From: Amycolatopsis sp. GM8
Lineage (GTDB): Bacteria; Actinomycetota; Actinomycetes; Mycobacteriales; Pseudonocardiaceae
Assembly (NCBI RefSeq): GCF_021653975.1
Contig: NZ_JAJKFK010000003.1
Coordinates: forward strand, 620,001 to 684,000
DNA length: 64,000 nt
Direction: 5' to 3'
Both the position numbers and the translations under genes were made by a program. Shown here in pieces: positions 5,801-13,872 of the stretch (positions are counted from its first letter, which is position 1; the number at the start of each line of letters is the position of its first letter). The notes under the pieces were generated by a model. The model had not been told where the DNA came from. It ran no database searches and saw only the letters and a list, made by a program, of their open reading frames with translations.

Positions 5801-8107
5801 TCAGGTGTGGATCAGGGACCGGACAATGGTGCTGTCGTGCTCGGCGGCGGCGCGTTCGGCTTCGGTGACCGGTTCCAGGCGGACGGGGACGTCCTTGTGG
5901 TGCGGAGTACCGGCGATCGGGTCACGATCGTGGGCGTCGGTGATCAGGTTGATCCGCGGGCCGTGCACCACGCGACCGCCGTGACCGTCTGGAATGGACA
6001 TACCGAAACCGTGTGGCAGGGCCAGTTGCCCGGCACGAAGGCTGTCGTCGGCCTCGGCCCGGACCACGATCCGGCCCGTCCTGGACACGACCGCGACCCA
6101 GTCCCCCGCCTCGGCGCCGGCAGCGGCCAGGTCTTCCGGCCTCGCCCGCAACGCGCCCTCGGGATCGGTCTTGCGCCACGCGGGCGCGCGCAGGATCTGG
6201 TTCGCGTTGTGGCTCCGGCGCTGGCCGTTGACGAGCGACAGCGGGAAGTCCACGGCGGGACGGTCCGCGGCTGGATCGAGCCGCCGCAGCCAGTCCAGCA
6301 GCTCCGGCACGGCGAGCCGTACTCGCCCGACCCGCATCAGGTCCCACACCTCGTCGTACTCGTGTTCGGAGAACAGGATCCCGCCGGGGGCGGCGAGAAC
6401 CCGGTCGAAGAGCTCCTCGCCCAGCGCCGGGCCGGACACCGAAGTGCCGAGCGCCCGCTGGACCGGCCCGGGCATCCGCTTCGCCGTCCGGTGGCACCCC
6501 GCCCACAGCACCGCGGCCGACGCGGCTCCGCCGGGCAGCGTCGGCCCCAGCGTCCGGTACAGCAGCACAGGTGCGATCGCGGCGAAACCCGGTACCGCGG
6601 CGGCGTGTGCGAGCAGGCTGGGCCGGTCGGTCCGGGCGACCTCGGTGAGCGTGTCGAGCGCCGCCTGGTCCGGCAGCGCGCCGAGCTTTTCGAACAACCG
6701 GGCGTAGATCTCGGCCTCGACCAGCGTGCCCGGCAACGGGTCGAACAGCGGCGGCCGCAGGTGGAAGTAGTTCTTCGGCCAGTCCAGCGTGAAGAAGGTC
6801 CATTCCCACTTCTCGTGCTGCGAAGCCGCGGGCAGCACGTAGTCCGCGAGGGCCGCCGTCTCGGTGTAGGCGACGTCGACGACAACCGACAGTTCGCATG
6901 CCATCAGCGCTCGCTCCACCGCCGCCGTGTCCGCCGCGGTGTTGGCCGGGTTCGAGGAATCCACCCACAGTGCGCGGATACGGTTCGGATGGCCGGCCAG
7001 CACCTCCTCGGCGAGCGTGTTCAGCGGAAGGTAGCCGGCGATGTACTCGTACCCGCTGATCTCCGACCGCTCCCCCGACGACTCGCCCCACAGCGGCATG
7101 AACCACGAGTGCAGCGCGTTGGTGCCCGGCCGTCCGAAGTGGCCGGTGACGAGGTAGAGAAGCTTTTCCAGGTAGCTGTTCAGGGTCGAGTTGCGGCCCT
7201 GCTGGATGCCCAGCTCGACGCGGACCGACATCGCGCGTGCGGCGAGGATCAGGTCCACCGCGCGTTCCACGTCGGCACGCTCGACCTCGGCGTGCGCGAT
7301 CCAGTCGTCCACCGGGATCGCTCGCAGCGCCGCCAAAACCTCGGTGGACCCCGCGGTGTGCTCGGCGAGGAACCGTTCGTCCTGCCCGTTCCGTGCGACG
7401 ATCAGCGCCAGGATCGCGCCGAGCAGATAGGCGTCCGTGCCGGGGCGCAGCGGTAGGTGCACGTCGGCCGCGGCGGCGGTCTCCGTGTGCCGCGGGTCGA
7501 TCACGATCATCGTACGGTCCGGGTCGTTCTTGATCGTGTTCACGACGTTGCGGGCGCGGGTGAAGCCGTGCGCGAGCCACGGGTTGCAGCCGATCACCAC
7601 GAGCAGGTCGCATTCTTCGATATCCTCGGCGGTGTGGCAGGTCTGGCCGCCGAAAAGCTTGCCGTTGACCCAGAAATCACCGGTCTTCTCCTGCGACAGC
7701 GCGCCGAAGTAACGCGTGCCGCCCATCCACCGCAGCAGCGCCTGCCCGTAACCGCCGCCGGAATGGTTGCCCTGACCGCCGCCACCGACGTAGGCGAACG
7801 AGCTGGGTCGCTCCCGCACCCGGTCGGCGTCCCGGATCTCGAGCAGCTTCGCGGCGATCTCGCCGAGTGCGGTGTCCCAGTCCACCGGTTCGTGCGTGCC
7901 GTCCGGCCGGCGCCGTAGCGGGGTGGTGAGCCGATCGCCGTCCTTGCCGTACCAGGTGAGCTGCTGTGCCTTCTGGCACAGGTAACCGCCGCTGCGCGGA
8001 TGTTCCTTGTCACCACGGATCTTGACGATGGCGCGGCCCTCGGTCCGCACCTGCAGTCCACAGTTGACATAGCAGAGGCTGCACGCCGTCTTGTGCCAGT
8101 CCGTCAC
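5801..8107 (-). CDS. Molybdopterin-dependent oxidoreductase, FdhF/BisC-like
   Basis: A 768-residue molybdoenzyme. The N-terminal 4Fe-4S site has Cys9, Cys12, Cys16 and Cys44, followed by the conserved Lys46 after the fourth Cys. The likely Mo ligand is Cys157 in 'GGQTCHTAED', a Cys-His pair like that of cysteine-type formate dehydrogenases. A C-terminal molydop_binding barrel ends the protein ('RSHNANQILRAP'). There is no Tat signal, so it is cytoplasmic. GTG 8107 overlaps the upstream oxidoreductase stop by 4 bp, so the two are coupled. The substrate is unknown, since formate dehydrogenase, nitrate reductase and oxo-transfer enzymes share this layout. The long apparent ORF extending to 9121 is an artefact of an open shadow frame. 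Confidence 0.85.
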   Translation of the reverse strand: MTDWHKTACSLCYVNCGLQVRTEGRAIVKIRGDKEHPRSGGYLCQKAQQLTWYGKDGDRLTTPLRRRPDGTHEPVDWDTALGEIAAKLLEIRDADRVRERPSSFAYVGGGGQGNHSGGGYGQALLRWMGGTRYFGALSQEKTGDFWVNGKLFGGQTCHTAEDIEECDLLVVIGCNPWLAHGFTRARNVVNTIKNDPDRTMIVIDPRHTETAAAADVHLPLRPGTDAYLLGAILALIVARNGQDERFLAEHTAGSTEVLAALRAIPVDDWIAHAEVERADVERAVDLILAARAMSVRVELGIQQGRNSTLNSYLEKLLYLVTGHFGRPGTNALHSWFMPLWGESSGERSEISGYEYIAGYLPLNTLAEEVLAGHPNRIRALWVDSSNPANTAADTAAVERALMACELSVVVDVAYTETAALADYVLPAASQHEKWEWTFFTLDWPKNYFHLRPPLFDPLPGTLVEAEIYARLFEKLGALPDQAALDTLTEVARTDRPSLLAHAAAVPGFAAIAPVLLYRTLGPTLPGGAASAAVLWAGCHRTAKRMPGPVQRALGTSVSGPALGEELFDRVLAAPGGILFSEHEYDEVWDLMRVGRVRLAVPELLDWLRRLDPAADRPAVDFPLSLVNGQRRSHNANQILRAPAWRKTDPEGALRARPEDLAAAGAEAGDWVAVVSRTGRIVVRAEADDSLRAGQLALPHGFGMSIPDGHGGRVVHGPRINLITDAHDRDPIAGTPHHKDVPVRLEPVTEAERAAAEHDSTIVRSLIHT

Positions 8108-12384: not shown

Positions 12385-12822
12385 GGTCCGAATTCGCCGT
12401 CCTTCGTGCCCGCTGGCATGCACGTGCATCTTGCAGCCAGCAAGCTACCATCGCTCACTGCACGCGTAAATGCACGTGCCGCGTGCACGTGCATTACGGG
12501 TAGAAAACGACACGACCGCTTTCCTCAATGGAGCTATCCCCTCGCCGCCGGCTGGCGGCTATTGTGCACAGAAAGTGAGAAAAGCGCCGGATTCAGGCGG
12601 AAATTGCAGCTGTCGGTGAGGATTCTGCTCCGAATGGGTGGTTAACAGGACCCCATCACCCTCGCGTCGGCGCTGGTCGCGGCACTGCTTAGAGTAAAGC
12701 CTTGGCGACGCGGAGGTGAGCAGGTGGGTCCCCCACCCCTCTGGGGTAACCCCAGCGCCCCAGCGAGCGTGGCACGCTCCGCGTACGGGTCCGCGCGGAT
12801 GAACGGAGAAAAGGTCACCTCC
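12385..12822. other. 438-bp non-coding region between hypothetical gene and RT
   Basis: It holds the palindrome array (12418-12495) and the structured RT leader (from 12704). Between them is a minor 6-bp hairpin (GCCGCC/GGCGGC at 12544-12559). A -10-like TAGAGT at 12690-12695 would place a transcript start at about 12702-12704, exactly at the first arm of the leader stem. The -35 region is weak. No small ORF with a ribosome binding site was seen. Confidence 0.6.
12418..12495. promoter_or_regulatory. Cluster of three GCACGTGC palindromes, candidate operator array
   Basis: ATGCACGTGCAT at 12418-12429 is a perfect 12-bp palindrome. AATGCACGTGC (12469-12479) and GCACGTGCATT (12485-12495) are perfect 11-bp inverted arms around 5 bp, each arm itself containing GCACGTGC. 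Centres are at 12423.5, 12475.5 and 12488.5, so the first and second are 52 bp (five helical turns) apart. The array lies between the 105-residue gene and the RT locus and probably controls one or both. The binder is unknown. Confidence 0.6.
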
Positions 12823-12830
12823 GTGTCGCC
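12704..12830 (+). ncRNA. Candidate retron-like msr RNA: three 6-bp hairpins inside a 16-bp closing stem
   Basis: GGCGACGCGGAGGTGA (12704-12719) pairs over 16 bp, with one G-U, to the segment 12815-12830. Inside lie three consecutive hairpins of identical geometry, each a 6-bp perfect stem with a 3-nt loop: 12723-12737, 12741-12755 and 12765-12779. A weaker hairpin CCGCG/CGCGG (12779-12798) follows. Closing arms around short-loop hairpins just upstream of an RT are the layout of retron a1-msr-a2. A long msd hairpin is not visible, so the DNA-templating part would be very short or absent. A translation-control leader is the alternative, because the second arm covers a possible GTG start. Confidence 0.5.
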
Positions 12831-13872
12831 GCTCGGCCCGATGCCGGTGTGGCGGTGGCAGGTCGCCCGCTGGACGACGTTCGACGAATGCGCCGCGGCG
12901 CTCGACCTGATGCCCGGCGAACTGTCCTGGTTCGCCGACGCCCGGTCCTGGAACCGCCGGGCCGGCCCGGCGCTGCGGCACTACCGGTACCACTGGCGCA
13001 CCACCGCCCGCGGCGGGATCCGCCTGCTGGAGCAACCGAAACCGCGACTGGCCGAACTGCAGCGCCGCGTCCAGCGGCATGTGCTCGCCGCGTTGCCGGT
13101 GCACGAGGCCGCACACGGGTTCCGCCGCGGCCGCTCGGTGCTGACCTGCGCCGCCCCGCACGCGGGCCAGGATCTGGTGGTGCGGATGGATCTCGAAGGG
13201 TTCTTTCCCGCGGTGTCCGCGCGGCGCGTCCGCTCGCTGCTGGAACTCGCCGGCTATCCGGTCGCCGTCGCGGCCGCGCTCGCCGGGATCCTCACCACCG
13301 CCGCCCCCGTCGACGTGCTGGCCGGCGCGCCGGACGGGCGGCGTGGGCCCGCGCGGACCCGGCTGCTGAACAACCTCGCGGCGACGCATCTGCCGCAGGG
13401 CTCGCCGTCCGCGCCGGCGGTCGCGAACGCGGTCACGCATCACCTCGATCACAGACTTTCCGGCCTGGCAAGGAAACTCGGGGTTCGGTACACGCGGTAC
13501 GCCGACGATCTCGCGTTCTCCGGCGACGCGAATTTCCCGCTGCACCGGCTGCTGCCGGGCGTACGGATGATCGTGCGGGACGAGGGATTCCGGCTGCGCG
13601 ACGACAAGACCTCGGTCACCGCGGTGCATCAACGGCAGCGCATCGCCGGCCTCGTCGTCAACTCCTCCCCCGCCGCCGCCCGGCCCGAGTACGACGCGCT
13701 GAAAGCCTTGCTGCACAACTGCACGCGCACCGGCCCGGCGGCACAGAACCGGCACGGCCATCCGGATTTCCGCGCCCACCTGCTGGGCCGCATCGGCTGG
13801 CTGGCGGCCTCGCATCCGGGCCGGGGCGCGAAACTGCGGGCGCTGTTCGACCGGATCGAGTGGCCCGGCTGA
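12823..13872 (+). CDS. Retron-type reverse transcriptase
   Basis: A 349-residue RT from GTG 12823, which has AAAGG 8 bp upstream. ATG 12799 and ATG 12841 are alternatives. Visible motifs: 'HEAAHGFRRGRSV' (94-106); 'RMDLEGFF' with catalytic Asp123; 'LPQGSPSAP' (190-198); 'YADDLAFSG' (226-234) with the catalytic Asp pair; Lys262 in 'DDKT'. The retron hallmark NAxxH appears as 'CAAPH' (109-113), and VTG appears as 'IAG' before 'LVVN' (274-280), so both are present in variant form. There is no maturase or endonuclease domain, so it is not a group II intron RT. The length is that of a bare retron RT. No effector fusion is seen, and the next gene is an unrelated-looking exporter. Confidence 0.88.
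   Translation: MSPLGPMPVWRWQVARWTTFDECAAALDLMPGELSWFADARSWNRRAGPALRHYRYHWRTTARGGIRLLEQPKPRLAELQRRVQRHVLAALPVHEAAHGFRRGRSVLTCAAPHAGQDLVVRMDLEGFFPAVSARRVRSLLELAGYPVAVAAALAGILTTAAPVDVLAGAPDGRRGPARTRLLNNLAATHLPQGSPSAPAVANAVTHHLDHRLSGLARKLGVRYTRYADDLAFSGDANFPLHRLLPGVRMIVRDEGFRLRDDKTSVTAVHQRQRIAGLVVNSSPAAARPEYDALKALLHNCTRTGPAAQNRHGHPDFRAHLLGRIGWLAASHPGRGAKLRALFDRIEWPG

Follow-up and report, generated by a model that had tools for sequence, protein, structure and literature searches.

A reverse transcriptase gene and its leader

The window analyzed here is a 64,000-nucleotide stretch of DNA whose plus strand carries, at positions 12841-13872, a gene for a retron-type reverse transcriptase (RT) of 343 amino acids, counted from ATG12841 and recognized through PADLOC, Pfam RVT_1, PDB and Foldseek. 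Its neighbors are an ECF sigma factor, a 119-aa protein without a name and a DrrA-type ABC transporter. The RT motifs picked out in an earlier reading of the letters by themselves (the sequence-only reading) are all present: YADD, CAAPH as a variant of NAXXH, and IAG before LVVN (IAGLVVN) as a variant of VTG, so that the protein has the YxDD and the NAXXH/VTG variants of a retron-type RT. According to a survey of 102 retron-lineage RTs, NAXXH was identifiable in 59% and VTG present in 47% (PMC4244168); since both are often missing there, the variant motifs are unremarkable in themselves. The best profiles for the window RT were those of the untyped retron RTs in PADLOC, RT_other (PDLC02949; 538.8 bits) and RT_outgroup (PDLC03740; 505.6 bits), followed by RT_XIII (290.8 bits). 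The NCBIfam profile for retron St85 scored 156 bits, under its cut-off of 235, and Drt2 (25.8 bits) and group II RT (44.9 bits) were likewise below their cut-offs. The best sequence relative in the PDB was the Ec86 RT (1.5e-27), and Foldseek searches with an AlphaFold model (mean pLDDT 87.3) returned retron RTs as hits 1-18 (TM by query length 0.53-0.66), with group II RTs next. Profile, sequence and fold searches, as distinct from a full retron tree, therefore all place the protein among retron RTs, where the sequence-only reading had put it.

Upstream of the RT, a -10-like TAGAGT (12690-12695) is followed on the same strand by arm a1 (GGCGACGCGGAGGTGA, 12704-12719) and arm a2 (TCACCTCCGTGTCGCC, 12815-12830). 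The arms, the hairpins and the -10-like box lie at the positions given in the sequence-only reading, and the arms form a closing stem of 16 bp, one of them G-U. Retrons have a priming guanosine beside a1, in a context such as TAGC or GAGC, and the window offers GAGC at 12718-12721 (plus strand), in which G12720 is, by analogy, the putative priming guanosine. PMC6868368, which lists variants of this context, names GAGC as that of Retron-Mxa2 (Mx65). Enclosed by the arms on the plus strand are msr hairpins 1 (12723-12737) and 2 (12741-12755), each of 6 bp with a 3-nt loop in the window, and a putative msd that would serve as the RT-DNA template (12758-12814, with deduced ends). Pairing read from the sequence gives this msd an outer stem of 12760-12765 with 12794-12798, containing one bulged A, and an inner stem of 12772-12777 with 12781-12786, containing one mismatch. 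The window thus has the retron arrangement of an RNA with a1/a2 arms, msr hairpins and an msd hairpin upstream of the RT, its msd stems being weakened. An a2-like sequence at 12656, upstream of the unit, has three mismatches and was dismissed as chance, since the window holds 14 such matches.

RNAfold gave -97.2 kcal/mol for 12690-12880, whereas shuffled sequences averaged -86.55 kcal/mol (z -2.30; 4 of 200 shuffles did as well). This single-sequence signal is only modest, so that comparative evidence from relatives decides whether the leader RNA is real. Rfam yielded no match at gathering score in the window; a single Rfam match of the leader at one related locus (L003) to a snoRNA had an E value of 9.9 and was rejected as chance.

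Conservation and covariation of the leader

We aligned 25 distinct leaders from the window, its congener and Amycolatopsis, which had a mean column identity of 86%. Exactly 156 nt long in 21 of the 25, the leader measured 157, 157 and 160 nt in three others and 130 nt in the window, where about 26 nt that its relatives have after hairpin 2 and before the third element, the msd, are missing. In relatives this third element is a two-tier hairpin before a2, with CCGCGC..GCGCGG around GCACGC-TCC-GCGTGC; as an msd candidate it is clearest in L071, L073 and L177. The sequence-only reading had described three hairpins of like geometry and no long msd hairpin, and had suggested that the DNA part could be very short or absent. 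Hairpins 1 and 2 stood, whereas the third (GAGCGT-GGC-ACGCTC, 12765-12779) is an alternative found in the window only, in place of the two-tier hairpin. The lack of a long msd hairpin likewise holds for the window's shortened copy and not for its relatives, and a very short or absent DNA part does not describe the RNA family, which conserves an msd-like hairpin, about 40 nt long, that is altered in the window.

Covariation across homologous loci had been set beforehand as a test, and it was found. In an alignment of 30 leaders (A3) built without structure and including one whose 5′ half is lost (L077), 42 pairs in five helices were 90.5% paired, compared to a shuffled mean of 85.1. Both sides had changed in 21 pairs and 69 cells, as opposed to 5-9 pairs and 5-18 cells for slid partners; none of 500 shuffles reached the covariation score and five reached the number of pair types. 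The closing helix (helix 1) was paired in 96.1% of cells, with both-side changes in 10 of its 16 pairs. Hairpin 1 (helix 2) was the weakest at 70.1%, in part from misalignment, and hairpin 2 (helix 3), which has 8 bp in relatives versus 6 bp in the window, reached 98.8%; the two msd helices (4 and 5) were 87.2% and 87.8% paired. Covariation was smaller among the 25 closer leaders (6 pairs versus a shuffled mean of 0.7). Each of 24 folded leaders had a closing helix of 11-21 bp with one mismatch allowed, which at least 3 of 60 mononucleotide shuffles matched in five of them (L080, L087, L088, L097 and L179). The -10-like box is shared as well: 28 of the 30 loci, all except L092 and L077, have TANNNT at 11-22 nt before the closing stem, compared with a background of 0.4% of equal-sized upstream stretches. 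These alignments show, far beyond chance, that the leader RNA (12704-12830) is structured and conserved.

Co-occurrence of the RNA and the RT

A covariance model built from the 25-leader set (R1) and run over 51 sources matched 39 of them at E<=0.001, in every case upstream of the RT on the same strand; 11 of these 39 were in the model, which leaves 28 of 40 as independent matches. Weaker matches occurred at L077 (0.0022) and at L088, L087 and L084 (0.029-0.091), and antisense matches arising from the palindromic stem begin at E 0.0027. L086, L093, L094 and five planctomycete loci were missed by R1 among the 51 sources. The RT is intact in frame at L077 (genome G176), where the 5′ half of the RNA is lost, and at L086 (genome G082), where the model did not detect the RNA. 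The window itself scored 108.3 bits, against 162.8 bits for G226.

Among 297 sampled genomes of the window's family, the RT matched in 55 at E<=0.001, some of these matches being weak and probably other RTs, and the RNA matched in 41, of which 40 also had an RT match; in the sole exception, G183, the RNA is truncated. Fifteen of the 55 RT-positive genomes had no RNA match. Seven of these have weak, partial or other RTs (G022, G048, G063, G084, G132, G153 and G158), three match in the laxer search of the 51 sources (G040, G074 and G265), four match there only weakly (G050, G155, G176 and G212) and one not at all (G082). The RT matched in 2 of 19 genomes of the window's own genus. In the Amycolatopsis genus, the RT matched strongly (E<=1e-144) in 38 of 80 genomes, and all 38 carry a full-length RNA just upstream of it on the same contig and strand; other cases in this genus are G303 (RT fragments, no RNA), G323 (a weak match to another RT) and the truncated RNA of G183.

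Further afield, 21 of 396 genomes sampled from the phylum had an RT match, four of them strong besides the window's own genome. When genome contigs were scanned, RT relatives turned up at 26 loci, in Amycolatopsis, Prauserella, Qaidamihabitans, a Saccharothrix MAG and the five planctomycete loci (RT identity 38-43%), and those in plasmid records include Burkholderia, Tsukamurella and Dietzia at 44-48% identity. The RNA model scored 71.2 bits at the Dietzia locus, 53.8 at that of Tsukamurella, and 32.0 and 28.7 at two Burkholderia loci, whose a1/a2 arms pair at 15/15 and 14/15 positions; it also scored 70.8 bits at L177, 63.3 at L179 and 38.7 at L178, was not clear at L180, and had no match at a Methylobacterium locus. 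The RNA is shared with distant actinobacteria of other families and with Burkholderia. No RT relative was found in viral contigs, and the 22 matches in phage records were all below 60% identity.

Gain, loss and neighborhood of the unit

The unit of gain or loss, comprising promoter, RNA and RT, spans 12670-13871 on the plus strand. In congener G242 the site is empty: alignment of the flanks stops at 12669 and resumes at 13871, the two being 8 bp apart. In congener G234 the same site holds fragments of a1 and the RT, a decayed relic. The empty site and the relic together indicate that the RNA and RT come or go alone. Between the window and G226 the RT has a dN of 0.089 and a dS of 0.633 (dN/dS about 0.14), by which measure it is under purifying selection. 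A tree of 26 RTs, shown without support values, places the window and G226 within the Amycolatopsis copies and suggests that the RT was acquired from the Amycolatopsis genus.

Two in-frame starts, ATG12799 and GTG12823, lie inside the RNA and are possible alternatives to ATG12841. The RT may begin within its own RNA (12799-12843), in which case a single molecule would have to be both translated and used as template, and the two uses would compete. In other genera the RT is longer by about 100 aa at its N-terminus, an extension absent from the window RT. The apparent first residues in L018, L019 and L022 (MLRVA..) look as if they were translated from the 3′ part of the RNA. The extension was considered as an effector and rejected, Pfam giving no match besides RVT_1 in six proteins (E<=1); its model is helical, of moderate confidence (mean pLDDT 75.9, pTM 0.50).

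Clustering revealed no constant neighbor gene across 61 relative loci. Nor was a defense partner found among six proteins neighboring the window RT, where the ABC hits were generic, and the RT thus has no linked effector gene of the kind that a tripartite defense system has. Genes resembling imuB and dnaE2 lie upstream of the unit in several genera (L003-L008, L018, L019, L022 and others). In the loci scanned, the 1.9 kb preceding the RT match hold no LexA-like boxes; such boxes lie 4.6-6.7 kb upstream in several dnaE2-linked loci. In G183 (L096, 6046-6142) the truncated retron RNA is followed directly by a pentapeptide-repeat gene, the RT being gone.

Comparison with known retrons and possible roles

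Full-length relatives match RT_other and RT_outgroup end to end, and the window unit is best read as a member of this untyped PADLOC clade. The PADLOC entries are RT profiles only; to them we add the RNA that goes with the RT, evidence of how it covaries and how widely it occurs, and the absence of a linked partner. We found no description of this RNA in the literature searched; the 2020 retron classification paper lay outside that search, so priority is not established. The next best match, retron type XIII, combines RT_XIII with SWIM_XIII, and the planctomycete relatives belong to it (RT 504.2 bits at L024; SWIM_XIII 577.2 bits at L023). The RNA model has no match at those loci, and neighbor clustering, as distinct from a profile scan of every neighbor, gave no SWIM zinc-finger cluster beside the RT at the window or the actinobacterial loci. 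Retron-Eco1 (Ec86), the closest PDB sequence, has the same RT fold and the order a1/msr/msd/a2, as in the window unit. It was solved with an effector (title of entry 7v9x), whereas the window unit has none linked. The myxobacterial retrons Mx65 and Mx162, as described in PMC6868368, share the GAGC priming context (Mx65) with the window and an extended RT N-terminus with most relatives, though not with the window RT; vertical inheritance counts as a further likeness.

The locus is very probably a stand-alone retron, in which an msr-msd RNA and its cognate RT form one unit without a dedicated effector gene. Comparison supports the divergent retron that the sequence-only reading had proposed, in which the RT follows an msr-like leader and has no effector: the RNA is structured, it covaries, a promoter-like box stands before it, and it moves together with the RT as one unit. 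By analogy with known retrons, the RT would bind the msr hairpins, prime from the 2′-OH of G12720 beside the a1/a2 stem, and use the msd hairpin as template for a short, branched RNA-DNA whose DNA part would be about 55-60 nt long in the window. Because the presence of the unit is patchy, its loss recurrent and its surviving copies still under selection, we consider its most likely role to be that of a sensor of phage or stress, which would act either through a host protein or through an effector whose gene lies elsewhere.

That such a toxic effector exists elsewhere and is held in check in trans by the RT-msDNA complex, making this a tripartite defense retron, is quite conceivable, if short of an even chance: a toxic effector is typical of retrons according to PMC12548924, and presence in 2 of 19 genomes of the window's genus and 38 of 80 of the Amycolatopsis genus fits defense, but no constant gene lies beside the unit, which inserts or is lost without a partner. 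Candidates for a functional partner nearby fared far worse. A dnaE2-like gene occurs in 28 of 61 loci and a pentapeptide-repeat (MfpA-like) gene stands directly behind many RTs, yet neither it nor imuB-dnaE2 adjoins the window copy; counting paralogues, the pentapeptide gene has a match at E<=0.001 in 281 of the 297 family genomes, among them the window's own genome, where it lies on another contig (71% identity), and it persists in G183, where the RT is lost. We therefore rejected the pentapeptide gene and retain imuB-dnaE2 as location only, which explains both neighbors; partnership with either is the least probable of the readings considered here.

Instead of being a retron template, the RNA might regulate translation of the RT in cis, or it might serve a non-retron, DRT-like enzyme as guide RNA. 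In favor of this, it is possible for the RT frame to begin within the RNA, and at L003 the ATG of the segment GGATGACAGGAG is the only in-frame ATG, GTG or TTG before the conserved PVWRW. Against this, St85 outscores Drt2 and group II RT, all below cut-offs; a1, GAGC, msr hairpins, msd hairpin, a2 and RT stand in retron order; and about 100 extra codons separate RNA and RT core in other genera, so that we regard this reading as highly unlikely. It is more of a question whether the window copy is a decaying relic with a shortened RNA that has ceased to produce msDNA. The missing 26 nt or so, the msd bulge and mismatch, and the lower R1 score indicate that it may be impaired, and decay has precedents in the relic of G234 and the empty site of G242 in the same genus, and in the RT-less G183 and the RT relic of G303 in Amycolatopsis. 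The RT frame is intact, however, as are both arms and both msr hairpins, and dN/dS against G226 is low, although this ratio covers the whole branch and not only the time since the deletion; outright decay seems rather doubtful.

Where the role of retrons is known, it is to guard toxins against phages. An old lineage of retrons that is under selection and has no linked effector would show either another use of RT-DNA or effectors recruited in trans. Tentatively, the stand-alone retron described here could represent an effector-free lineage, sharing a single RNA architecture between bacteria as far apart as Actinomycetota and Burkholderia, in which RT-DNA would not guard a toxin but would itself be the active product: a regulator, a decoy, or a cofactor in DNA repair or in mutagenesis. 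With the RNA model, the question can be tested in many named strains of Amycolatopsis and Prauserella, and high-GC bacteria contribute short, compact RT-RNA pairs to those usable for DNA production.

A solo msd copy

In genome G272, a 59-bp copy of linker and msd (contig 40, 160429-160487; L095, 6430-6488), identical at 58 of 59 positions, sits apart from the RT locus in a variable intergenic stretch beside a repeated element. It was the one such case that the RNA model found in 80 Amycolatopsis-genus genomes; a pattern scan for more was too noisy, control matches being similarly numerous among the matches listed. The copy is possibly captured RT-DNA, as it would be if the effector-free reading were true, and recombination is the other reading. 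The repeated intergenic element, of about 180 bp, starts at the edge of the copy (L095, ~6488-6673), and several further copies of it occur in G272 and related genomes.
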